DNA of 64,000 bases from assembly GCA_963678705.1 (NCBI GenBank), contig OY783212.1, forward strand, positions 17,794,001 to 17,858,000. The letters run 5' to 3'. This document shows positions 6,542-43,596 of this stretch, piece by piece. The number at the start of each line of letters is the position of its first letter. Position 1 is the first letter of the stretch. The stretch comes from Panorpa germanica (lineage: Eukaryota; Arthropoda; Insecta; Mecoptera; Panorpidae). Under the pieces are notes generated by a model that saw nothing but the letters and a program-made list of their open reading frames with translations, did not search any database and was not told the DNA's origin. The translations under genes were made by a program, and so were the position numbers.

Positions 6542-7318
6542 GTTGTTATGTTTGTTTATTTAAAATTAATGATTACCGTATAAAATGCAAAATGCAAAAT
6601 GCATACACTCATTTATATTTATATATATATTCTTTATATTACATTTTGTTTGAATTGTTTTTTATTAATTTCTGAACACAAGAAAACTCCAAATTTATTA
6701 ACTTCCTAGAAATGAAAAGTAATAAAAAACAATTCCTTCTTATTAAAGAAAAATCTCAAAGAGATTAACAGTTTTATTAAATTTACCAGAATTATTTATA
6801 AATCGGTAAATTAATTTGATTAAAAGTAAAATTTGATAAATAATTTCACTAAAAAAGTGTTTTTAAAATACTAAATTGTAATTGCATTTATGAAATTTAT
6901 TTTACAAAGAATTTGATAATACTTTAATAACATTAATTTTAAAAAAATATTATATTTATAAATTAAGTCAAAAAAATTTAATAATAAACATTTTATCTAA
7001 TAGTACAATATATTTTTCATATACCGTTCTAATAGTGCAACTTCCGTTTAAATATATTTAAGATAAAAATAACAATATTTTAAGTTTCTAAATGGCAAAA
7101 ATCTGCAGAAAATAGATTTCGTGTCACATATACAACGTAGACGTAAAGATCTAACATTCTGGTATCAACCTCTCCAATTTTTACAAAAAGTGCCTGTGAC
7201 ACCCCAGTGAACATCGTCGTGACCTTCAATTTCATAAGAACATCATAACAACACTTATCTAACGTAAACAGATAAATATGTCATGTAAAAACATTATAAA
7301 CTGTGTATAATACTTAGA

Positions 7319-7436
7319 ATCGGTTGCTGTACTCATAGTTATGCCATCCTTGTAGCAGAAACTTAATCGTCCGAATGATTTACCGTTATTTCTCTTTCGA
7401 TTAACTATTGCGATAACAATGAGTACAGCAACCGAC
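7319..7436. repeat. 118-bp inverted-repeat element (about 22-bp arms)
   Basis: TCGGTTGCTGTACTCAT followed by tGTTA-like bases at the left (from 7320) is mirrored by ATGAGTACAGCAACCGA at the right (to about 7435), with one mismatch over about 22 bp. It has no coding capacity. It looks like a miniature DNA transposon or a stable hairpin; target duplication unclear. Confidence 0.5.
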
Positions 7437-10274
7437 ACTTGTTAGAAACTTATAAAAGTTATGTTTTATTATTTTATTTTAAATCTGAATACTTTATATT
7501 GTTCATCGAAGTATCAGGTTGGTACTATTATGTTAGGTCACCATTGGGTCTGTTTTTAAGCTAGTTTTCTAACACGTAAATTTGTAAGGAATAGATAATT
7601 GGATTATATGTATTTCCACGGCAAACATCCGTCCTATCGTTGGTAGATTACTTATACACTATTTTCAATTCCCGTACATAAAAATCAACCAAGAAATTAT
7701 TTTTACCAATTTTTAAACTATTCAAAATTTGGAATCGTTTCCGTTCTTTGTTTTTATTTTGATGAATCCCCATTGATACCATTTCTTGTTTCGAAAGTTG
7801 TATAGATGTATTACAATGTAAAGAAGTTAAATCGTATATAAAATTGTATTAGATTTTAATTTTCTAATTTGGATTTTCACACAATATTTATAACTACAAT
7901 TTAATATACAATTATCAAAATTCCTTAAATAAAACTGTTTAGTTTTTAACTGTGCTCTATAAATTTTGAAACATGAATAAAATAATTCAAAAAATATAAA
8001 ATTTATTAAAAACACTTGCTGATTTCATTGTATTAAATACATATCTTAAAATTTTCTCTTGAGTTAATTTATTAGAAACAAGTGATAATAAGACAAGAAA
8101 ATATTTCAAAAACGCTTTTCATTAAAGAAAAAAAATCATATGGTGTTATATAAAATTTAAATGCAAAAATAAAAATGTTCTTCATGCTAAAAAAAATATA
8201 ATTTTAAGTAAGCGTAATTGGGCTTTATTAAGTTGATGGATTTTGTAATATTTTGCAATAACATAAGAAACAATTTAATTTTAATATATACATGTTATGA
8301 AAAAGAATTCTAAACAGTTATTAATATAATAAATAGATTGTTACTAAATTATATACTTAAAAAATACAAATCATTATAAAAGTAATTATTTAAATGGTAA
8401 ATTATGATTGACAAAAACTGATTGCCGAAAATTGTTGGGCCTACAATATGACTATATTAAAAGATCATATTTTATTGTTTTAATATAATTTGTATTTACA
8501 TTGTGTATGGTTCTATCAATAACGAAATTATCAAATATGTGACTAGTATGATATTTTACATACTACCCCCAAGTCGTCATTGAACTCAATATTATTATGT
8601 CATACAAAAATTGTGATAAAAGAAGAAATGTATTCTTAGATATATTTGGCTTCAACGAATAAAATTTCATGAGTAAAATATATTGTAAATGTAATTTATA
8701 TAAATTTTAGAATACTTTCTTTCAATTCTTCATAGAGGTTATTAGAGAACTAAAACCAAACGATATCACAAATATTAACTATACATATTCTAGTCCCTTT
8801 TAAATTAAATTACTCATCTAAACTTCTAAAGCATAATAAATATGAACTGTTTAAGAAACAAATGTAATATATGTTTCGAAAATAATCAGTTTTCTTAAAA
8901 ATTACATGTAAAACTTGGTAATTGAATATGTGAATAGAATATAACAATTAAAAATGCTGTCTGCAAAAGTAGCACAATCACAAGACACTTTACATAATAT
9001 CAAATTTAGTACAAGATAAAAGAACCATCGATACTACAGATTCATAATTTTCACACATTCAGTCTTCGAATTCCAAGAACAGACAATCTTATATGAAAAT
9101 ATCTATTTAACGAGCAAACTATTAAAAATAACTAATTTAACAAAATATTCAGTTTAATAAATAATATTTAACCTAATAAATTAATAATTGTAGACAAAGA
9201 AATACAAAATATGTTAAGTATTCAAATGCTTATTATATTAATTCATAAAAACTCCTCACAATAAAGATTGTGCTAAAAAAATGTTATCATCGATATAAAT
9301 AATTTGATATTTCCAAAAATTTAATAGGTTAATTATTAAAATTAGATATGAGACAGCTTAAAAATACCAAAGCTTCATGTTCAAATATTTGACTTTTTTA
9401 TTTCAATTTTAATATATTTAACATAATACATTTTTTATTTGACAAAATTTATTATTAGTAGTCTAAAATGAAAAAATAATTCATAGACTAAAAAATAATA
9501 AACCTTCAATACAATATTTACATATTTCCAAAAATACCTATAAAAAAATCATTTAATTGCAAAACTCTATTAAAAAATATATTTTAACTACAAATATTTA
9601 TTGAACATCATTTTTAAATTGAATCTATAAACTTCAGATTGAAAAATTTGAAATAAATTTAGAAACTTAATTTTGTTCTCAATTATTAATAGTAGAATTG
9701 TCATAGATTATTGAAACAAATCAATATACTATCTATACAAACTATAAAAAGCTACACGATGTTATACGGATCATTACATTATTAATATTGTACTACATGT
9801 ACATGGTAAAGGCAAATCTTAAAAAAGTATTAAAAAAATATCTAATTTGAAAATGACTCATCTAAAAAAAAAAAAGGTATATCAAAAACAAAAAAGGTAA
9901 ATGTATATCAAAAATCAAACAAGATTATTAAAAAAGAAAATATTACTTGTTTAAATATTTTTATTTGCCAATTATAAAATATTTCTAGAAAAAGGAATAA
10001 TAAACACAAAATATCTCAAATATATAAACTTAGTTACTTGCAGGTAAATGATTTTTTTAATAATAATTTTTAAGAATAAAAAAAATGAACTTCAACAATG
10101 ATTAATAACAAAACACTATACAAACAATTGTCTCCATAGAAATAAAGCTTCTTTTTCATATCTTTGAAGAAATCTCCGCCACATTTTCTTAAAAAATCCT
10201 ATTCTTAAAGATATAAATAGGCTAGATCCAGTAACTAGGTAGCAAACTGCGTCCCTTTTTAAATACATCATATA

Positions 10275-22500: not shown

Positions 22501-24066
22501 TTTTTCTTAAACTAAGGCTGCATTGCGAAAAAGAATAGTGCGGAAGTAAAGCCGTACGAATGTGATTTTCTTTCACAGTGTGGTGGTTCTAATCTAAGAA
22601 AGATTCGTCCAAAGCATTTTTTCGATGAATTTTTTTTACAGTGTATTTATCTTTACTTACCAATACAGGCATTATATATTTAGTAATAGTTGGAACTGTT
22701 AACATTTCGTAACACTGTCCAAATGGTTTTAACAAGGCATGAACAACGGGTAAAGACAATCTTGAGCTTTCGATGGATGAATTCATTGTTCCGGAAGTAG
22801 AACCTGCTTTATCCGAAACACTAGTTTTATCTGATGCAGATTTACTATTATTAGAGCCAGTCATTGCATTATCAGCAAGAATTGCATTATTAATACATTG
22901 TACAGAACTGGTGCTGCTTTCATCATTACTCTTACTATTTGCTTGAGGAGAATTAAATGTTGATTTAGTACTATTAGAAAAATCACTCGTTGTCACTAAC
23001 AGTTGTTCACTGGAATTATTTTTATTTATTGATGGGTTGATTAAGTTAGCGCCGCTTCGAAAACGTTCTAAAAGTGCATCAAATCCACCCATTTGCCCAA
23101 ATCTGTAAATTAAAAGTAACAAATTATGCATTTAAATAAAGTTAATCTTCAAGTAACAAGTTCATTTTGAACAAAACAAAAAATATTGAATCTGGATTAA
23201 TGTGAATGGCTTACTTATTTATGAGATCAACAAGCCACCCCCGAGGATTTCTTGGATCTCCACATGGCCTGGCGAATATTTCAATTCCAGGTTCATCAGG
23301 TGGTGCTCCAGTTACATTTATTGAAACAACGGACCCAATTTGCGAGGGGACCGTCTCACTAGCTCGAGAAGCGTTGAATGTGTGAAACCTAAATAAAAAA
23401 ACAAATTAAATAAAAATATGTACATTTGGGCATGGTTTTGCGTATTATCATTTCCAACTCACTTATTATTAGGATTAAGCACCATAGACAATAAATCTAA
23501 CAACGGAAACCAATCATGCGGCATTTTAATAACACATAATTCTAATAATTTTATGCACGATTGTAAAATACAATGATGAATATTATATTTCCAACTGTTG
23601 ACCGCTTCATCAGTCAAAATTTTCGTGAACGACACAGTTAAGCCCTCACGGAAAAATCGCTGGCAATGCTCAGATTCGATATCCCGACCTATTGAAAAAT
23701 AAAATTCAGTAAAAATTATTCAATATAATAAATAAGCTGAATATAAACGATAATATATCCAATCAATTGTACCTGCTTTGCACAAATCTATCGCAGCTTT
23801 TAATAGACATTCAAGCTCCTGGTCTGGCAATACAGGAACCACCCATCGAGGATTTGAAATCTTTTCGTCTAAAATTATTAACTTTCCAACAGGGAACGTA
23901 TCTGGTGTACAAGGCGATGCAGGTGAAATACTAAAATATATTTTAACATTTGGTTAGCAAAAAAAAAGGAGATAGTAATTGTATAATAAATTGAAACCTA
24001 CCTTTCGATCTCGTTAGGAGGTTCCTCGAGGGGCTCCCCCGCGCGCCCTCTGGTGGCTATAGTCAT
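10544..24066 (-). CDS. faf: Ubiquitin carboxyl-terminal hydrolase, fat facets / USP9X orthologue
   Basis: Very large gene of roughly 30 exons on the minus strand. It starts at ATG 24066 (exon 24066-24002) and ends at TAG 10546-10544 (last exon 10639-10544). The product is of the order of 2,500 residues, as in USP9X. It is collinear with USP9X as I remember it: PRWVVPVLP near the N-terminus, [37 protein letters not shown], a ubiquitin-like segment with its [14 protein letters not shown] linker (~18.5-19.3 kb), then the USP domain. The catalytic Cys box [13 protein letters not shown] has Cys at 15964-15966. The zinc ribbon has CRGCPHRY and CDKCDKK. The His box is [14 protein letters not shown], with His at 14725-14727. 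So the enzyme should be an active cysteine protease removing ubiquitin from substrates. In flies faf acts in endocytosis of Notch ligand with epsin (established knowledge). The N-terminal part has a Ser/Asn-rich insert. Confidence 0.95.
13065..13218. mobile_element. 154-bp MITE-like element in a fat facets intron
   Basis: The 13-bp ends AGTTCGGCGGCGA (13065-13077) and TCGCCGCCGAACT (13206-13218) are perfect inverse complements. They are unusually GC-rich compared with the AT-rich intron, and there is no ORF. Target duplication not clear. Confidence 0.5.
22461..22643. mobile_element. 183-bp MITE with TA target duplication (mariner-like) in a fat facets intron
   Basis: The left end CACTCTAAAAAATATTGGTC and the right end, read inversely CACTGTAAAAAAAATTCATC, continue to match for about 38 bp (TCGAAAAAATRCTTTRGACG). 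The element is flanked by TA on each side (22459-22460 and 22644-22645). TA duplication plus CACT-type ends suggest a Tc1/mariner-like non-autonomous element. Splice sites of the surrounding exons are untouched. Confidence 0.6.
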
Positions 24067-31114: not shown

Positions 31115-33171
31115 TAATTGTTTATAAAACGTTATCATTAGCTACAAGCAATTTTTTAGGTTTTTATCATTTTGCTAAATATATATATTTCTCTACTTTA
31201 TTAGATATTAATCTGTATTATGATCCAAAATTGTTTAAAATGAAAATTAAAACAATGGTTGAATATTTTTGTCACAAAACTTAATGCAGTGAATATTGAT
31301 ATGAAGTTTTGAACATATTTTCACATAAGAATTATTAGATATTTCACTTCAATTAAAATTTTAGAAGTAAATAAAAGTAACGATAAATATTCAAGCAACA
31401 TTACCATTTTTCAATTTAACCAATAATTATAAACTAGGAGTAATTAATATAGAATATGTTTAAATAACTTGAATATTTATCGTTATTTATTAACTGAGTG
31501 TATACTTAATGTACATTAATTTTCACAAAAAAAAAAACATAAATATTCATCACATCAGTTTGTGAAAACAGTACATTAATCACATTATTTCAATTAACAA
31601 ATAATATTTGTGATATGTTTCGTTTTGAATGAATACAGATTATTTTAATTTAATTAATATTTCATATTATTTTTAATATATTCATTATTCTACCAGTTAA
31701 ATTTAATTTACAAACGTAGCATTTACTTAATATTTATGTATCATTGCTTTAAATGTAAATTATATGTAAATGCTACATTATTTCTGGTTGCTTTATGAAT
31801 TGTAGTCTAATTATATTTCAATTGCATTTGTAGTTCAAAAACATATATTAGGTTATATAAATATAATAACATTTTTACATAGTCCGAACCATAAATGGTA
31901 AAATTATCCGTTAAACACAAAACATGGATATTACTTTAAATACATATAATATTTTACTTTGCTTAAACGTGAGGTTTAAACAATGCCTTTAACCCAGTGA
32001 AGTTCGGCGATTTATTTTTAAACTTCAAGTCGTATTATTTGTGTTATATTCATTTTGAAAGTATAACTGAAAATAACAACGACAGTAATAATTATTACAG
32101 ATACATTACTGTATTACAAGATATTGAATTTAAATTTGCAGATCACTTTTTGAATGTTTGTTTCACGAGGTTCATATTTTTAATAATTGTTGTTTTTAAG
32201 GTACACTACTTGTAATACACGTGTTTGTAATGTCACAGTTTTGATATAAATATGAGTTAAAGTAAAACAATTTTAACATCCGATTATTTCAAGAAAATAT
32301 ATAAATTTCGATTGGGAAAGTGAAAGTTACAATATTCATTTAATTTCGCACTTCCACATAATTTACTACTTAATTTCAATGTTAATATATATTAATTTGC
32401 TTAGCAAAACACGTAATAAAACAAATTTAAAATGTTTGCTGCCTTACCATTCCAGATAATTTGATTTAATTATGTTTATCATTTACTGTTACCTAGTAGA
32501 TAGTAATGCATTAGTTGTATATACTTGCCTGTGCTTGTTAACCTGTTTTATAAAATATATTTGTACTATTGTACTTAACAAAAGAAATTAACAATTATTG
32601 TTATAAAAAATATATATGTTCACAATATATTATAATTAAGAAAAATATATATATATACAAACAAATTAATTTTTATTTTGATGTAAAATGATTGTAGTGT
32701 TGAATTTAAAAAATGTCGTAACTTAATTTATGAATGTAATGTTTGGGAGGAATGTAACATATGTAACAAAACAATTAACATACAGCAGCCTATACTAAGT
32801 AAACAGTAAGACTACTAGTACTAGTTTCTACTAATTAATAAATAACATTAATAAGAAACTAATTATTTAAAAAAATAAAATTAGTGCCATCTATTAAAGA
32901 GTAGCGTCAAAACATAAACAGTTCCTCATTTGCACAACAGATGGCGATCCTATTAAAACGCCTGGATATACTGCAACTACAATAACACCACTTTCTAACT
33001 TGCATTTAAAATCCACAAAATATACAATATTTTTGATCATTTTAAGAATAAATTATTCAATTTCTTTTTGCTTATTTTAAATTTATATGCATTATTTAAA
33101 ATTTCTAAGCCTCAATCTACTAACAAAGAAAATTAACTTATTAATTAATTAATTCCTTAACATATATTCAT
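31115..33171. other. AT-rich intergenic DNA without genes
   Basis: Very AT-rich with many short A/T runs. The only open frame (31997-32215) has no domain and AT-noise composition. Confidence 0.5.
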
Positions 33172-34023
33172 GCAGTTACGTTCATTATGCTCTAAAATAA
33201 ATAAATATTTAATTACATTTTAAATAATTACGCATGTCTGTCGTTTATGCGACCTTTTTTAATTCATGAACATTTCTTTCTAAAACTGAAATATTTATAT
33301 TTTTGAAAAATGGTTTATGTTTGCTGACGCTGCTTCTATTGCTTATTTCAAAATTAAAAACTATTTTCATTATATATTTATATTACAGTTTAATTCCAAT
33401 TTAAAAGACTACTAGCGACATCTATTTACGTAACTATAAACTATAAAGAGAGGTTATTTGTGTTGCCTAAAAGTCAGGCGTTTAAGTTGCCACAAATATA
33501 ATTATTTTACGTAAATATTAATTTTTTAAAAAGCGAAAAGAAAAACTAAATTCTCTGCAATTCCTCGAGATGATAAAAGGTTATAAAACTCTTGTTAAAA
33601 ACGATGGAAATGTTAAATTTTTAATTTTAGCAGAAACTAAATTTGGTTCACTTCTTCGAGATTATAGAAGGTTATACTCTTGTTAAAAACGATGGAAATG
33701 TTGAATTTTTAAACTTTGACAAAAATTTCTGTCTTTGATATGTAACAAGAGCATAACCTTATTAAAAATAATAAAACTATTGAATTTATTAAATATACAT
33801 TACCATATAAATATTTTTGTTTAAATCCAATTAACAAAACATCTAGCGACATCTATTTATGTAATTATAAACTATAATGAGAGGTTATTATTGTTGCCTA
33901 AAACTCAGGCGTCGAAGTTTCTACAAATTTAATTATTTTATGTAAATTTTAAGGCAAAGCATTAATATATAATATAACCATTGAAAATTACAATTTATAA
34001 TACAATTTACATGTATATTTTTT

Positions 34024-35103
34024 GATGCAGTCGCCAGGCTTTAAGTTAAAGAACTGCTTCATTACATTTTAAATATCCACGCGTTTCTGGCTTTTATGCG
34101 ACCTTTTTTAAATTCATGGACTTTCTTTTCTAAAACTTTTTTTGGATTTCTTGAAATTTTTTGATGCAATTATGTTCGCCAGGCCTTAAGTTAAAGAACT
34201 GCTTCATTACATTTTAAATATCCACGCGTTTCTGGCTTTTATGCGACCTTTTTTAAATTCATGAACTTTTTTTTCTAAAACTTTTTCTGGATTTCTTGAA
34301 ATTTTTTGATGCAATTATGTTCGTTAGGCTTTAAAATAAAAAACTGCTTCATTACATTTTAAATATCTACGCGATTCTGACTTTTATGCGACCTTTTTTA
34401 AATTCATGGACTTTTCTTTCTAAAAATTTTTTTTGGATTTCTTCAAATTTTTTGATGCAGTTATGTTCGCTAGGCTTTAAATTAAAGAACTGCTTCATTA
34501 CATTTTAAATATCTTCGTAGTTCTGACTTTTATGCGACCTTTTTTAAATTCATGGACTTTTTTTCTAAAAATTTTTTTTGGATTTCTTGAAATTTTTTGA
34601 TGCAGTTATGTTCGCTAGGCTTTAAATTAAAAAACTGCTTTATTACATTTGAAATATCTACGCGATTCTGGCTTTTCTGCGACCTTTTTTAAATGCATGG
34701 ACTTTTTATTCTAAAAATGTTTTTTGGATTTCTTCAAATTTTTTGATGCAGTTATGTTCGCTAGGCTTTAAATTAAAGAACTGCTTCATTAGATTTTAAA
34801 TATCTTCGCAGTTCTGACTTTTAAGCGACCTTTTTTAAATTCATGGAATTTTTTTTCTTAAAATTTTTTTTGGATTTCTTAAAAATTTTTGATGCAGTTA
34901 TGTTCGCTAGGCTTTAAATTAAAAAACTGCTTTATTACATTTGAAATATCTACGCGATTCTGGCTTTTATGCGACCTTTTTTAAATGCATGGACTTTTTT
35001 TTCTAAAAATTTTTTTTGGATTTCTTCAAATTTTTTGATGCAGTTATGTTCGCTAGGCTTTAAAATAAAAAACTGCTTCATTACATTTTAAATATCTACG
35101 CAG
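34024..35103 (+). repeat. Left arm: tandem array of the 146-bp unit, direct orientation
   Basis: Unit starts (at GATGCA) are at 34024, 34163, 34308, 34454, 34599, 34745, 34891 and 35037. Spacing is 139, 145, 146, 145, 146, 146 and 146 bp; the eighth copy is cut at 35103. Conserved blocks are TATGCGACCTTTTTTAAATT, GGATTTCTTGAAATTTTTTG and AACTGCTTCATTACATTTTA. Confidence 0.9.
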
Positions 35104-35587
35104 AAACTCAAAAAATTGCATTGCTCTTAAAATCATAAAAGTGAACCTTTTCATCATTTTTAACAAGATTATAGTCTTCTTTCATTGCATGCTCCGATGA
35201 AGAGATTTAATTTATTGATATATCAAGAACTAAAATACTTAATTAAAAATGAATTATAAATTTGAAATCAGCATTCAAAATTAAGTTAAAATCCGTTATA
35301 AAAATAATACTTTTTTTTTTAATTTTTTTGAAAAGTAAGAAGAGTATAGTCTTCTTACTTTTCATAAAAATTGTTTGACTTTTTATGCCGATATCTCGTA
35401 ATCCAAAAGACTTATCTAAAACTTAATTACAAATTTGAAATGAGCATTCAAAATTATATAAAAAACCATTATAAAAATAACATATTTTCTTCTTCAGTTT
35501 TTCAATGAAAGAAGACTATAATCTTGTTAAAAATGATGAAAAGGTTCACTTTTATGATTTTAAGAGCAATGCATTTTTTTGAGTTTC
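35104..35587. repeat. Palindromic centre of the repeat locus
   Basis: About 85 bp at 35104-35187 (from AAACTCAAAAAATTGCATTG to TAGTCTTCTTTCATTG) recur as a near-perfect inverse at 35503-35587. Between them lie a 14-bp-stem hairpin, GAAAAGTAAGAAGA with a 6-base loop and TCTTCTTACTTTTC, around 35330-35365, and two direct copies of an AAATTTGAAATSAGCATTCA block. The whole is a nested foldback. Confidence 0.85.
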
Positions 35588-36317
35588 TGCGTAGATATTT
35601 AAAATGTAATGAAGCAGTTCTTTAACTTAAAGCCTGGCGAACATAACTGCATCAAAAAATTTCAAGAAATCCAAAAAAAAATTTTTAGAGAAAAAAGTCC
35701 ATGAATTTAAAAAAGGTCGCATAAAAGGCAGAAACGCGTAGATATTTAAAATGTAATGAAGCAGTTTTTTATTTTAAAGCCTGGCGAACATAACTGCATC
35801 AAAAACTTTCAAGAAATCCAAAAAAAAAAATTTAGAAAAAAAAGTCCATGAATTTAAAAAAGGTCGCATAAAAGTCAGAATCGCGTAGATATTTAAAATG
35901 TAATGAAGCAGTTTTTTATTTTAAAGCCTAACGAACATAACTGCATCAAAATATTTCAAGAAATCCAAAAAAAGTTTTTAGAAAAAAAAGTCCATGAATT
36001 TACAAAAGGTCGCATAAAAGTCAGAAACGCGTAGATATTTAAAATGTAATGAAGCAGTTTTTTAATTTAAAGCCTAGCGAACATAACTGCATCAAAAAAT
36101 TTTAAAAAATCAAAAAAAAATTTTTAGAAAAAAAAGTCCATGAATTTGAAAAAGGTCGCATAAAAGCCAGAAACGCGTAGATATTTAAAATGTAATGAAG
36201 CAGTTCTTTAACTTAAAGCCTGGCGAACATAACTGCATCAAAAAATTTCAAGAAATCCAAAAAAAAAATTTAGAAAAAAAAGTCCATGAATTTAAAAAAG
36301 GTCGCATAAGTCAGAAT
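35588..36317 (-). repeat. Right arm: tandem array of the 146-bp unit, inverted orientation
   Basis: The unit ends at CTGCATC fall at 35653, 35800, 35947, 36093 and 36239, spacing 146-147 bp. The last copy breaks off near 36317 after GGTCGCATAA. It has fewer copies than the left arm, so the palindrome is asymmetric. Confidence 0.9.
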
Positions 36318-37000
36318 TTCATTTAGAATTTATAATACAATTATAATACAATTTAGAATACAAGTCATTTCATCGAGATGTTAGAAGGTTATACTCTTGT
36401 TAAAAACGATGAATTTTTAAACTTAAAAAAAATACAAATTTCTTTGTCTTTGAGATGTAACAAGAGTATAACCTTCTTAAAAATAATAAAACTATTGAAT
36501 TTATTAATTATACATTACCATATAAATATTTTTGTTTAATTACAATTATCAAAACTACTAGTGACATCTATTTATGTAACGATAAACTATAATGAGAGGT
36601 TATTATTGTTGCCTGAAATTCAGGCGTCGAAGTTTCTACAAATTTAATTATTTTATGTAAATTTTAAGGAAAAGCTGTAATATATAATATAACCATTTTA
36701 AACTACAATTTCTGCACCTCTTCGAGATGATAGAAGGTTATACTCTTGTTAAAAACGATGGAAATGTTGAATTTTTAAACTTTGACAAAAATTTCTGTCT
36801 TTGAGATGTAACAAGAGCATAACCTTATTAAAAATAATAAAACTATTGAATTTATTAAATATACATTACCATATAAATATTTTTGTTTAAATCCAATTAA
36901 CAAAACATCTAGCGACATCTATTTATGTAATTATAAACTATAATGAGAGGTTATTATTGTTGCCTACAATTCAGGCGTCGAAGTTTCTACAAATTTAATT

Positions 37001-37284
37001 TTTTTTTTTTTTTTTAATATAGTTTCTCGGGCTTCATAGGCACGTAGCCTTTTATCGCCCCTTATATATTCTGCTTTTTCTTATACTTTGTATCCCGATA
37101 ACAAGAATGATCTATTCATGGCTACTGCTGTTATAAATTTCGGTTTCTCAATCAAAAAGACGGTGTTAACAGGAAGCGTCTGCGAAGTCTGTAGCACCGC
37201 CCGTTGGAGTCCATTTCTTGCCATTGCTGTATTTTTACATTGCCACAGAATGTGGTCAGGGTCTGCCTCTTCTTCACCACATAA
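37001..37284 (-). mobile_element. 5'-truncated non-LTR retrotransposon (LINE) 3' end inside the repeat locus
   Basis: A run of T (37001-37015) is the antisense poly(A) tail. The insertion is flanked by the 10-bp duplication AAATTTAATT (36991-37000 and 37285-37294) and splits a family-B repeat. Read on the minus strand, it encodes CGEEEADPDHILWQC, the cysteine/histidine motif found near the C-terminus of reverse transcriptase ORFs of several LINE clades, followed by a short tail and a stop. The copy is a dead fragment. Confidence 0.8.
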
Positions 37285-38345
37285 AAATTTAATTATTTTA
37301 TGTAAATTTTAAGGCAAAGCATTAATATATAATATAACCATTGAAAATTACAATTTCTGCACCTCTTTGAAATTATAGAAGGTTATACTCTTGTTAAAAA
37401 CGATGAAAATGTTGAATTTTCAATTTTTGTAAAAATCAAATTTTCTGCATTTCTTCGAGATGATAGAAGGTAATACTCTTGTTAAAAACGATGGAAATGT
37501 TAAATTTTTAATTTTTGTAAATACTAAATTTTCTTCATTATTTGAGATTATAGAAGGTTATAATCTGGTCAAAAACGATGAAAATGTTAAATTTTTAATT
37601 TTTGTAAATACTAAATTTTCTTCATTTCTTCGAGATGATAAAAGGTTTATACTCTTGTTAAAAGCGATGGAAATGTAAAATTTTTAATTTTAGCAAAAAC
37701 TAAATTTTCTTCACTTCTTCGAGATGATAGAAGGTTATACTCTTCCTTAAAACTATGAAATGTAACATTTGTAAACTTTAACTAAGATCTCTTAGCAGAT
37801 CTCTATTTTTGAAAAGAAAGAGGCATATAACCTTCCTAAAAATAATGAGAATGTTGTAATTACTAAATTTACATTAACATATAATTATTCTAGTTTAAAT
37901 TAAATCCAATTAACAAAAACTACTAGCGACATCTATTTATGTAATATTATACTATAATGAGAGGTTATTTGTGTTGCCTATAATTCAGGCGTTCAAGTTG
38001 CCATAAAATAATTATTTTATACCAATATTAAGAGAAACAATACTAAAACTATTTAAAACTAAATTCTCTTCATTTCTTCGTGATGATAGAAGATTATACT
38101 CTTTTTAAAACGATGGAAATGTTAAATTTCTAATTTTTGCAAAAACGAAATTCTCTTTATTTCTTCGAGATAATAAAAGGTTATACTCTTGTTAAAAACG
38201 ATAGAAATGTTAAATTTTAAATTTTAGCAAAAACTAAAGTCGCTTAACACCTGAATAATAGGCAACACAAATAACCTGTCATTTTAGTTATACGAATAGA
38301 TGTCGTTAGTAGTTTTGTTTATTGGTTTTAAACTAAAATATTTAT

Positions 38346-39262
38346 ACATGCTAATTAAATTTAGTAAAATTCAATATTTTCGTTATTTTTAAGAAGGTCT
38401 TGTTACATATCAAAGACAAAGAAATTTGTATTTTTGTTAGAGTTCAAAAGTTCAACATTTCCAACGTTTCTAACAACGTTCTATCATTTATAGAACATAA
38501 TCCAGAATGCAATTAAACATTTTATACTTTTATCATCCGCTTCAAATAACAGGAACTACTTATTGCAAAATGATAACGACGTAGTTAAAATTTAACAATA
38601 AAACTATAATAGATAGCAAAACTTTTTATTTAAGAAAACACAATCACACCAAACTTTTAAAAGTTCTTTTTATTAATTGACATAGCATTTGTTCGTTACT
38701 ATGGACTTTCTATATAAACCAGTTCTTCTTAGTTTCAAATGTGATAAAAGCAATTGATAAGAAAAATGTGCCTAATTATTCTAATTATTTACTTAACATA
38801 ATTGTTCAAATTTGAGTTACGTATACGAATATTTATATATACAGTTAGCATATTAAGTTTCTCTTTTATAATAAAATTTTGGTCAAGTAATAAAAATATG
38901 GATAACTTTAACATATATTCTATTTTATAAAAATTTAACGGTAAAAAATTAACAACATCAGTATTTATTCTTATTGAAATACACATTCGGTGGTCACTTT
39001 GACTAGGGCAATTGGCTTATTTGGAGCTACTTTTTTTAGCACAAACTAAGAATACATATTTGAAAAGATCAAAATCATGCTAAAGACGAACTCCTTCATA
39101 CTAACAAAATAGCTGCATGTAATCCTTCCAGCCCACTAACATTTTTTAAAATCACCACAAAATATTTATAATCAACTTAGTAACTAGAAAATAACTTCAA
39201 AGACATAATTTAGGAAATACGTATCACATGGTATTAAAGTTGTTTTATATGACTTGCATAAA
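38346..39262. other. AT-rich spacer, presumed 3' flank of UXS1
   Basis: No exon recognised. The stretch nearest 39262 is probably UXS1 3' UTR. The minus-strand open frame 38789-38986 is AT noise. Confidence 0.4.
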
Positions 39263-42423: not shown

Positions 42424-43596
42424 ATGTCAAGTGGCAGGTAAATTTGTATATTAATAATTAATATATCTATCATTAGTATATATTTTTATAAGCTTATAAA
42501 TTTGTAAATTACAGATTAGCAAGTTGTGAAGTATGTGCTGTTAACGACGCAAAGTACACTTGCCCAAAATGTGAGGTTAAGACTTGTTGTTTGAAATGTG
42601 TAAATATTCATAAGAAAGAACTAGAATGCGATGGAGTAAGGGACCGAACCAAATATATTCCCTTAGATAAATTTACGAACCTAGATTTACAGAGTGACGT
42701 AGCATTATTAGAAGATTGTTCCAAAACTCTACAGAGCTGGCAGAGAAACAGATCTAAACCTTACAGACACAATGATAGAGAACTCCCTTATGTAATTATA
42801 AAAATTAGTTGAATGCTTGCTAACACATATAACTGGATTTTAGTATTTACAAAATTCTATTCGATTCTAAACAAAATATTTATATTTTCAGCATTTACAG
42901 AACTTGAAATTAGCAGCATCTAGCCGTAAAACGAAACTTCACTTGTTAACACAGAACTTTACAAGAAATAAAGAAAATACTACTTACTATGATGTGAAAA
43001 CACAAGTACTACACTGGAGAATAGAATGGGTTTTCCCAAATGCAGAAAATGTAAAATTTGTTGACCAGAGATGTAACGAAAATTTGAAACTTTCAAAGCT
43101 AATAAATAAATATTTAGATCCAAATGAAGAATCTTTTCATAAGAAAGATTCCTTAATCTTTTACCAAGCAGCTGGTTTAAGTGGGATTAGAATATTGTTA
43201 AAGGCAGAGCGTATTAAAAACTGCAGCAAAAAGTATTATGAGTTGGACGCGGGATTAACTTTAAAGGAAAATTTAGCAGGAAAAAATATAATAGAATATC
43301 CTACTATATTAATAACATTTAGAAATCAACCCGGTACTTATGAATTAGCAGATTCTGGTAAGTTTTGTAATAAATTTTGTCATATTTTATTTCATTATTT
43401 AATCATTTTTAAATTTACAGATGATGAAGAAATGGAGGTAGATGATGACAATTTAAAGGATGAGGGAAACAAACGTAAAGCAGATGATAAGACTTTGATA
43501 AAAGAAAAGCCAGCAAAAAAACCGAAATCGCTTTTATTTATATCTGAATATTCAGATGGAGAATTGGAAACATCAGAAGAATCCGAGCATGATTGA
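42424..43596 (+). CDS. Znhit6: Box C/D snoRNA protein 1 (HIT zinc finger, BCD1/ZNHIT6)
   Basis: Four exons: 42424-42437 (14 nt), 42515-42791, 42892-43357 and 43421-43596; 310 residues. An HIT-type zinc finger follows the short first exon: CEVCAVNDAKYTCPKC then CCLKC and the HKKELEC end. The central part (DVALLEDCSKTLQ, later KTQVLHWRIEWVFPNA) matches the BCD1 family. The C-terminus is acidic and Lys-rich (KEKPAKKPK, then ESEHD). BCD1 proteins assist assembly of box C/D snoRNPs in the nucleus, together with the NOP58/R2TP machinery (family knowledge). The tiny first coding exon is supported by the ATG, the gtaaat donor and frame continuity. Confidence 0.9.

Follow-up and report, generated by a model that had tools for sequence, protein, structure and literature searches.

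A palindromic tandem-array block of Panorpa germanica that looks like a Helitron-family body fused to a second repeat

The window considered here, a stretch of 64,000 nucleotides (nt) from the mecopteran Panorpa germanica (contig OY783212.1, referred to below as C9; C9:17,794,001-17,858,000), harbors a block in which two arrays of the same short tandem unit face each other across a foldback center, and which raises the question of what kind of element such a palindrome represents. A first-pass annotation, made from the nucleotide sequence alone, had considered a foldback transposon, a very large non-autonomous terminal inverted repeat (TIR) element which amplified internally, or a small satellite seeded by a transposon. 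The analysis presented here supports the last of these, as the block looks like a Helitron-family body which lacks its ends and is fused to another short tandem repeat, forming a small, still-forming satellite mainly along one chromosome. It is considered probable that this palindromic body (the core) belongs to a non-autonomous Helitron family, that it was fused into a satellite composed of units termed B, E, D, and K, that the hybrid multiplied mainly on C9, and that the window contains one such hybrid. The assembly comprises 464.2 Mb in 249 contigs, with C9 contributing 19.18 Mb (4.1%).

Architecture of the block and occurrence of its core

In the nomenclature used here, A denotes the 146-bp unit of the opposed arrays, F and G the components of the center, and B an 88-bp unit accompanied by units E, D, and K. 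Tandem-repeat detection placed a direct array of A at 34031-35101 (period 146, 7.4 copies) and an inverted array at 35589-36316 (5.0 copies), in agreement with the head-to-head arrangement of ~146-bp units (7+ direct and 5+ inverted copies around a foldback center) described previously for this sequence. The arms are complementary at 90% over 479 nt (34558-35036 with 35802-36280) and at 94% over 193 nt (34995-35187 with 35503-35695), while alignment of the whole arms yielded 86.6% identity over 1008 columns, with a score of 719 (20 base shuffles reached 72 at most). From left to right, the block reads A, D, B B E D K, seven A units with a part unit, F G F', and inverted A units, followed by B E D K, B E D, a fragment designated R, K, five B, E D, B B, and inverted D E B. 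It includes several arrays of the 88-bp unit, which is present in 11 direct copies and 1 inverted copy, and D (5 direct, 1 inverted) occurs in opposite orientations at the two block ends, with a single degenerate A unit outside the left D. The terminal inverted copies of a "family B" that the first-pass annotation had reported, leaving the family undefined, are thus recognizable if D was meant but not if the 88-bp B was, since the latter is inverted at the right end only. The A arrays are flanked by other repeats (B, E, D, and K), and the repeat families are not fully independent, since F, the arm of the foldback, is related to B in inverted orientation (score 33 versus at most 20 in 100 shuffles; z score of 8.9).

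A search of the whole genome was performed with 2 kb of the center and located the core on many chromosomes (453 matches; best 40 of 1494 candidates scored). Twenty-five loci were read, namely, the window, L009 to L028 (the 20 higher-scoring of 37 further clusters, grouped by eye among the matches listed), and L039 to L042, which were chosen by their 3' ends. Every one of the 25 carries opposed A arrays around a center, with unit numbers and flanks which differ between loci; the center is rearranged in L022 and L040, and locus L042 is interrupted. Although palindromes are prone to misassembly, this recurrence makes an assembly accident, in the form of a collapsed or misjoined palindrome, the least probable of the explanations considered and an unlikely one. 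The arms hold between 2 and 24 full A units, as counted in single-core loci in which an arm could be followed from the center (the right arm of L022 was not countable). Where element ends were recognizable, the center faces one way in eight loci (L014, L017, L020, L027, L028, L039, L041, and L042) and the other way in four (L015, L021, L023, and L026), a count which was made by eye and is soft because the center is partly self-similar. These observations suggest that the arrays expand and contract and, given a center found in both orientations, that recombination occurs between the arms. Long, near-complementary arms would give double-stranded RNA if transcribed, and the inverted repeat might thus have been kept for small-RNA silencing; array sizes vary widely between loci, which speaks against such retention, and we give it very little credence.

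Across 431 full A units, mean identity was 0.921 within loci versus 0.898 between loci, and the nearest relative lay in the same locus for 195 of them, far above a random draw over 25 loci. Within the window, 9 of the 11 A units are closest to units at other loci, and the remaining two (WL1 and WL3, 0.979) are closest to each other. Local turnover and the inheritance of whole arrays have, therefore, both shaped the A units. Strong local turnover, coupled with B matches in arrays of 88-bp steps elsewhere, is what would be expected had the block evolved as a purely local satellite by tandem duplication and inversion in place, with no transposon involved. Such an origin is contradicted by the presence of the core on many chromosomes in bounded insertions (described below), as well as by the affinity of most window A units to other loci, and is regarded as very improbable, although local satellite evolution is possible for the outer B-E-D-K part.

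Ends of the young copies and the machinery available to them

The nature of the core is apparent from copies which retain their ends; those on other chromosomes are flanked by sequence unlike that in the window. A 127-bp query representing the 3' end returned 344 candidate places (best 40 scored), and the ten best ends (98-99%) break off at ...CCGAACAGCTAG, with unrelated DNA beyond. Among ends with at most 3 mismatches, the first flanking base is T in 17 of 17 distinct 3' flanks, or at 13 of 13 independent sites once a Helitron of another family (L011) is dropped and four flanks at one site are counted once; more decayed 3' ends, such as that of L023, lie outside this count. The 5' end begins with TCCTATATTATAATGTTCC, its terminus being TC, and the base before it is A at four of the five distinct sites counted; excluded from this count are the L040 internal duplicate and the cut-off L037 end. 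At the fifth site, L041, G precedes TC, and the element directly follows the CTAG of another Helitron. A 124-bp 5' query yielded 957 candidates (best 40 scored), and this end is, therefore, probably shared with a wider family.

Copies bounded on both sides were found in L040 (4,426 bp), L041 (3,639 bp), and L028 (4,753 bp). Each is composed of the 5' end, ~300 to 900 bp, the direct A array, the foldback, the inverted A array, ~230 bp, and the 3' end with CTAG, so arranged that the palindromic body accounts for ~3 to 4 kb. These bounded young copies are devoid of terminal inverted repeats, their ends (TC... and ...CTAG) being different, and no target site duplication was seen in L028 and L040, the two copies for which both simple flanks were read. 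The copy in L034 has a B unit as its 3' flank, which was entered at a step between A and T. Canonical Helitrons, as outlined in the available part of PMC4067079, begin with TC, end with CTRR, and insert between A and T. The young copies present precisely such ends (TC, CTAG, insertion between A and T, and no duplication). The core is, therefore, to be read as a non-autonomous Helitron family body and not as a TIR element, and neither the foldback transposon nor the very large non-autonomous TIR element of the first-pass annotation describes its basic nature. The A units resemble the Helitron 3' region at ~61 to 75%, which suggests that the A array may have grown from sequence adjacent to the end. 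A further canonical feature is a palindrome of 16 to 20 nt located ~11 nt from the 3' end (PMC4067079, available part); the core family, when RNA rules are applied, exhibits a 19-nt hairpin with an 8-bp stem that includes G-T pairs, 12 nt from the end, but this hairpin is weak when evaluated as DNA (z score of +0.72), although that of the sister 3' end is better (z score of -1.75). In L041 (1-1862) and L037 (1628-2427), the core element directly adjoins a head-to-tail neighbor, a related Helitron sequence whose 3' hairpin (CGTCGC-TT-GCGACG) is clean and whose 5' region is similar.

The enzymatic machinery for such elements is encoded in the same genome. The Helitron_like_N profile produced 150 matches (best 150 of 893 candidates scored) and matched 0 of 14 control genomes, and an open frame of 1,119 residues is present at 25 of the 150 listed places (our own count of rows). 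The near-identical scores of these 25 frames suggest a recent burst of an autonomous Helitron. Approximately 2 kb beyond one match (C20:3.03 Mb) lies a PIF1 helicase frame, and the 3' end of this Helitron reads ...GGGTCAGCTAG followed by T, having only its last seven bases (CAGCTAG) in common with the core family. The core family is presumably copied by the Rep/helicase of autonomous Helitrons in this genome, and the end sequences by which its autonomous partner would be recognized are TCCTATATTATAATG and GGGCCGAACAGCTAG.

A competing explanation envisages a foldback or hAT-like inverted-repeat transposon, in which the arms form part of long terminal repeats and are moved by a cut-and-paste transposase. 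It was founded on L020, where inverted ends CAGTGGCGGCCTTAG and CAGAGGCGGTCTTTG are alike at 12 of 15 positions and the flanks TACGCCAG and TACTCCAG match at 7 of 8 bases, representing an imperfect 8-bp duplication with a chance of ~0.0017 for one pair; we take these ends to be hAT-like. One common 3' flank is, moreover, present in L010, L014, L015, and L017; followed outward, it reaches an end of this type in L010 and a decayed version of one in L017. As the principal reading, this candidate was dropped since the young copies bear no hAT-like ends and break off at CTAG followed by T, in unrelated DNA, and two-sided duplication is seen at L020 only and is imperfect. L015 shows a nested arrangement, with the 5' TC of the Helitron within the hAT-like left end and its CTAG within the common flank, as expected if a Helitron had jumped into a hAT-like element. 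The simplest account is that it did so and that the hAT-like element then carried the core onward; a TIR element may, in this manner, have carried some copies secondarily, whereas a hAT-like or foldback origin of the core itself is unlikely.

Fusion with the B-E-D-K satellite and spread on C9

In the window, the core is joined to K on its left side and to B on its right. With a 131-bp query for the left fusion, 12 listed matches crossed the junction, of which one lies on C3 and the other 11 on C9 (58 matches; best 40 of 142 candidates scored), and for the right fusion, 11 listed matches crossed it, 10 on C9 and one on C3 (at least 232 matches; best 40 of 268 candidates scored). Hybrids constitute 9 of the 21 loci first read, all of them on C9, and L018 and L019 display a second kind of fusion junction. 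Because the fusion junctions are shared, the main hybrid kind is likely to have a single origin. The partner is itself repetitive outside the hybrids. A B-E-D query gave 233 matches (best 40 of 374 candidates scored), the best on C9, and, considering match positions only, B-E-D extends over C21:1,027,259-1,036,678 and B recurs at 88-bp steps over C14:7,560,228-7,565,283. From these positions, B and B-E-D also form longer stand-alone tandem arrays, as satellites do. Since F is related to B, the fusion may have made use of the similarity between them.

Two tandem copies of the core with B-E-D-K are present in L010, and L009 contains two cores and part of a third, arrangements which are the beginning of a higher-order repeat. 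The outer edges of the hybrids vary by locus, and their masked flanks are mostly unrelated, so that they do not appear to have spread as a unit with fixed termini. Duplication of whole segments of C9 was considered as a route and rejected, as the masked flanks of the nine C9 loci share little beyond repeats, the exceptions being a different repeat, found in both L012 and L016, and some short matches. The hybrid in L010 ends in a B unit joined to a Helitron 3' end, and a Helitron may thus have carried at least this hybrid. Left fusion junctions also occur as pairs in opposite orientation, 2 to 3 kb apart, at C9:17378563/17380840 and C9:4335659/4338761, and possibly represent mirror-image hybrids, i.e., a higher level of palindrome.

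Several points weigh against a Helitron origin of the block and have to be set beside the evidence above. The window copy has neither Helitron end: no 5' end with up to 3 mismatches is present in the window, and the sole match to the 3' motif, at 23362, lies outside the block. The 3' hairpin of the core family is weak as DNA (-2.4 kcal/mol; z score of +0.72; equaled or bettered by 155 of 200 shuffles), and hAT-like inverted ends are found on some older copies. Simple flanks on both sides cover two copies only, insertion being read from flanks and not from empty sites, and no autonomous element with core-family ends was found, the end of one Rep/helicase Helitron having been read. Finally, the loci first read are the best matches to the window rather than a random sample, and the junction searches scored 40 candidates each.

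The features of the block are listed in Table 1. Fragment R, which by eye looks like the 3' part of a non-long terminal repeat (non-LTR) retrotransposon, has matches in four other loci (L012, L018, L021, and L022). Flanking the core, L026 carries a 774-bp direct repeat (99.4% identity; 2088-2861 and 7016-7789 of that locus), one copy on each side, and L015 contains, next to its core (~7700-8900 of that locus; C9, ~1.945 Mb), sequence that judged by eye encodes acyl-CoA desaturase exons. Rfam at gathering thresholds gave 0 matches in the window, and Pfam, applied to four window frames, identified only a BCD1 domain (42904-43596; E value of 1.4e-42) in a frame unrelated to the block.

Table 1. 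Repeat units, arms, and junctions of the palindromic block (window positions)
Feature	Position	Strand	Description
Degenerate single A unit, left edge	33167..33285	+	82% to A reference
Left satellite segment	33405..33985	+	D 33405-33502, B 33542-33628, B 33634-33718, E 33725-33833, D 33834-33933, K 33930-33985
Left fusion junction, K / first A unit	33986..34018	+	Junction query matches
Left arm	34019..35101	+	7 full 146-bp A units and 70-bp part unit, direct
Foldback center	35102..35588	.	F 35102-35216, G 35217-35390, 85-nt spacer, inverted F' 35476-35588
Right arm	35589..36341	-	70-bp part unit, 4 full and one truncated A unit, inverted
Right fusion junction, truncated A unit / B	36309..36366	+	Junction query matches
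Right satellite segment	36366..36999	+	B, E, D, K and B, E, D; period 351
Inserted R fragment	37010..37282	.	After T run, between AAATTTAAT direct repeats; between D and K units
K, five B, E, D, two B units	37290..38225	+	
Inverted D-E-B copy, right edge	38247..38507	-	D inverted 38247-38318, then inverted E and B to 38507

Proposed origin and relation to known elements

It is, accordingly with the strength expressed at the outset, proposed that the palindrome (A array, F-G-F' foldback, and inverted A array) would represent the internal body of a non-autonomous Helitron family which inserts between A and T and is presumed to rely on the Rep/helicase of autonomous relatives. In a single event, a core without Helitron ends would have been fused into a satellite of 88-bp B units with E, D, and K, and the hybrid would then have multiplied, both in tandem, as in L010 and L009, and at dispersed sites that lie mainly on C9, through a process without fixed termini, such as unequal exchange, ectopic recombination, or circular DNA. 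The C9 hybrids can be read as a series in which a bounded transposon loses its ends, is joined to a different repeat, and becomes part of a tandem higher-order unit, giving a clear view of how a satellite biased toward one chromosome may begin. Models of Helitron transposition invoke a single-stranded or circular intermediate. Because a long internal inverted repeat should snap back in such a state, the core family offers a natural test of how Rep/helicase handles hairpins. A bolder and decidedly tentative possibility is that of a rolling-circle family whose snap-back palindromic body has its foldback made or maintained by the rolling-circle process itself, through single-strand snap-back and template switching, with the cores feeding a chromosome-biased hybrid satellite; if true, this would tie Helitron replication directly to the birth of palindromes and the formation of new satellites.

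Among known elements, those of the Galileo and FB (foldback) type likewise possess long, internally repetitive inverted arms and are structurally variable, but they are cut-and-paste transposons bearing terminal inverted repeats, which the young core copies lack. Tetris, a foldback transposon of Drosophila virilis, resembles the core family in its inverted arms of tandem repeats (~220 bp) with variable copy number, from which longer satellite arrays have been derived (PMC4079207, available part). It differs in having terminal inverted repeats with flanking domains and target duplications of 8 to 10 bp, whereas the arms of the core family are internal to TC...CTAG and the two copies read show no duplication.

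With canonical Helitrons (PMC4067079, available part), the core family shares the 5' TC, the 3' CTRR (here CTAG), insertion between A and T, and the lack of an observed target duplication, in a genome in which Rep and PIF1 helicase frames are abundant. Unlike them, it has a body formed by a palindrome of tandem arrays, a 3' hairpin that is weak as DNA, and no autonomous copy with matching ends that we could find. Further parallels are Helentron-type elements with central satellite repeats, such as Cg_HINE of the Pacific oyster (PMC7492417), Helitron-associated oyster satellites (PMC8268682), and DINE-1 (PMC4067079), which, to the extent that these sources were available, are also rolling-circle elements of the non-autonomous kind that contain short tandem arrays and disperse them, the oyster repeats being found on their own as well. 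In Cg_HINEs, however, the central repeats lie between two end modules and TT sites are favored, in contrast to two opposed arrays around a foldback and insertion between A and T; the term "head-to-head" has 0 occurrences in the main text of PMC7492417. Among the open-license PMC papers listed for the terms used, at the level of titles and abstract openings, neither a Helitron with a palindromic tandem-array body nor the series of hybrids was described. That Helitron-family elements carry satellite repeats is already known from Drosophila and oyster (PMC7492417 and PMC8268682, available parts), while the palindromic body and the C9-biased series of fusions and hybrids are what the P. germanica family adds.

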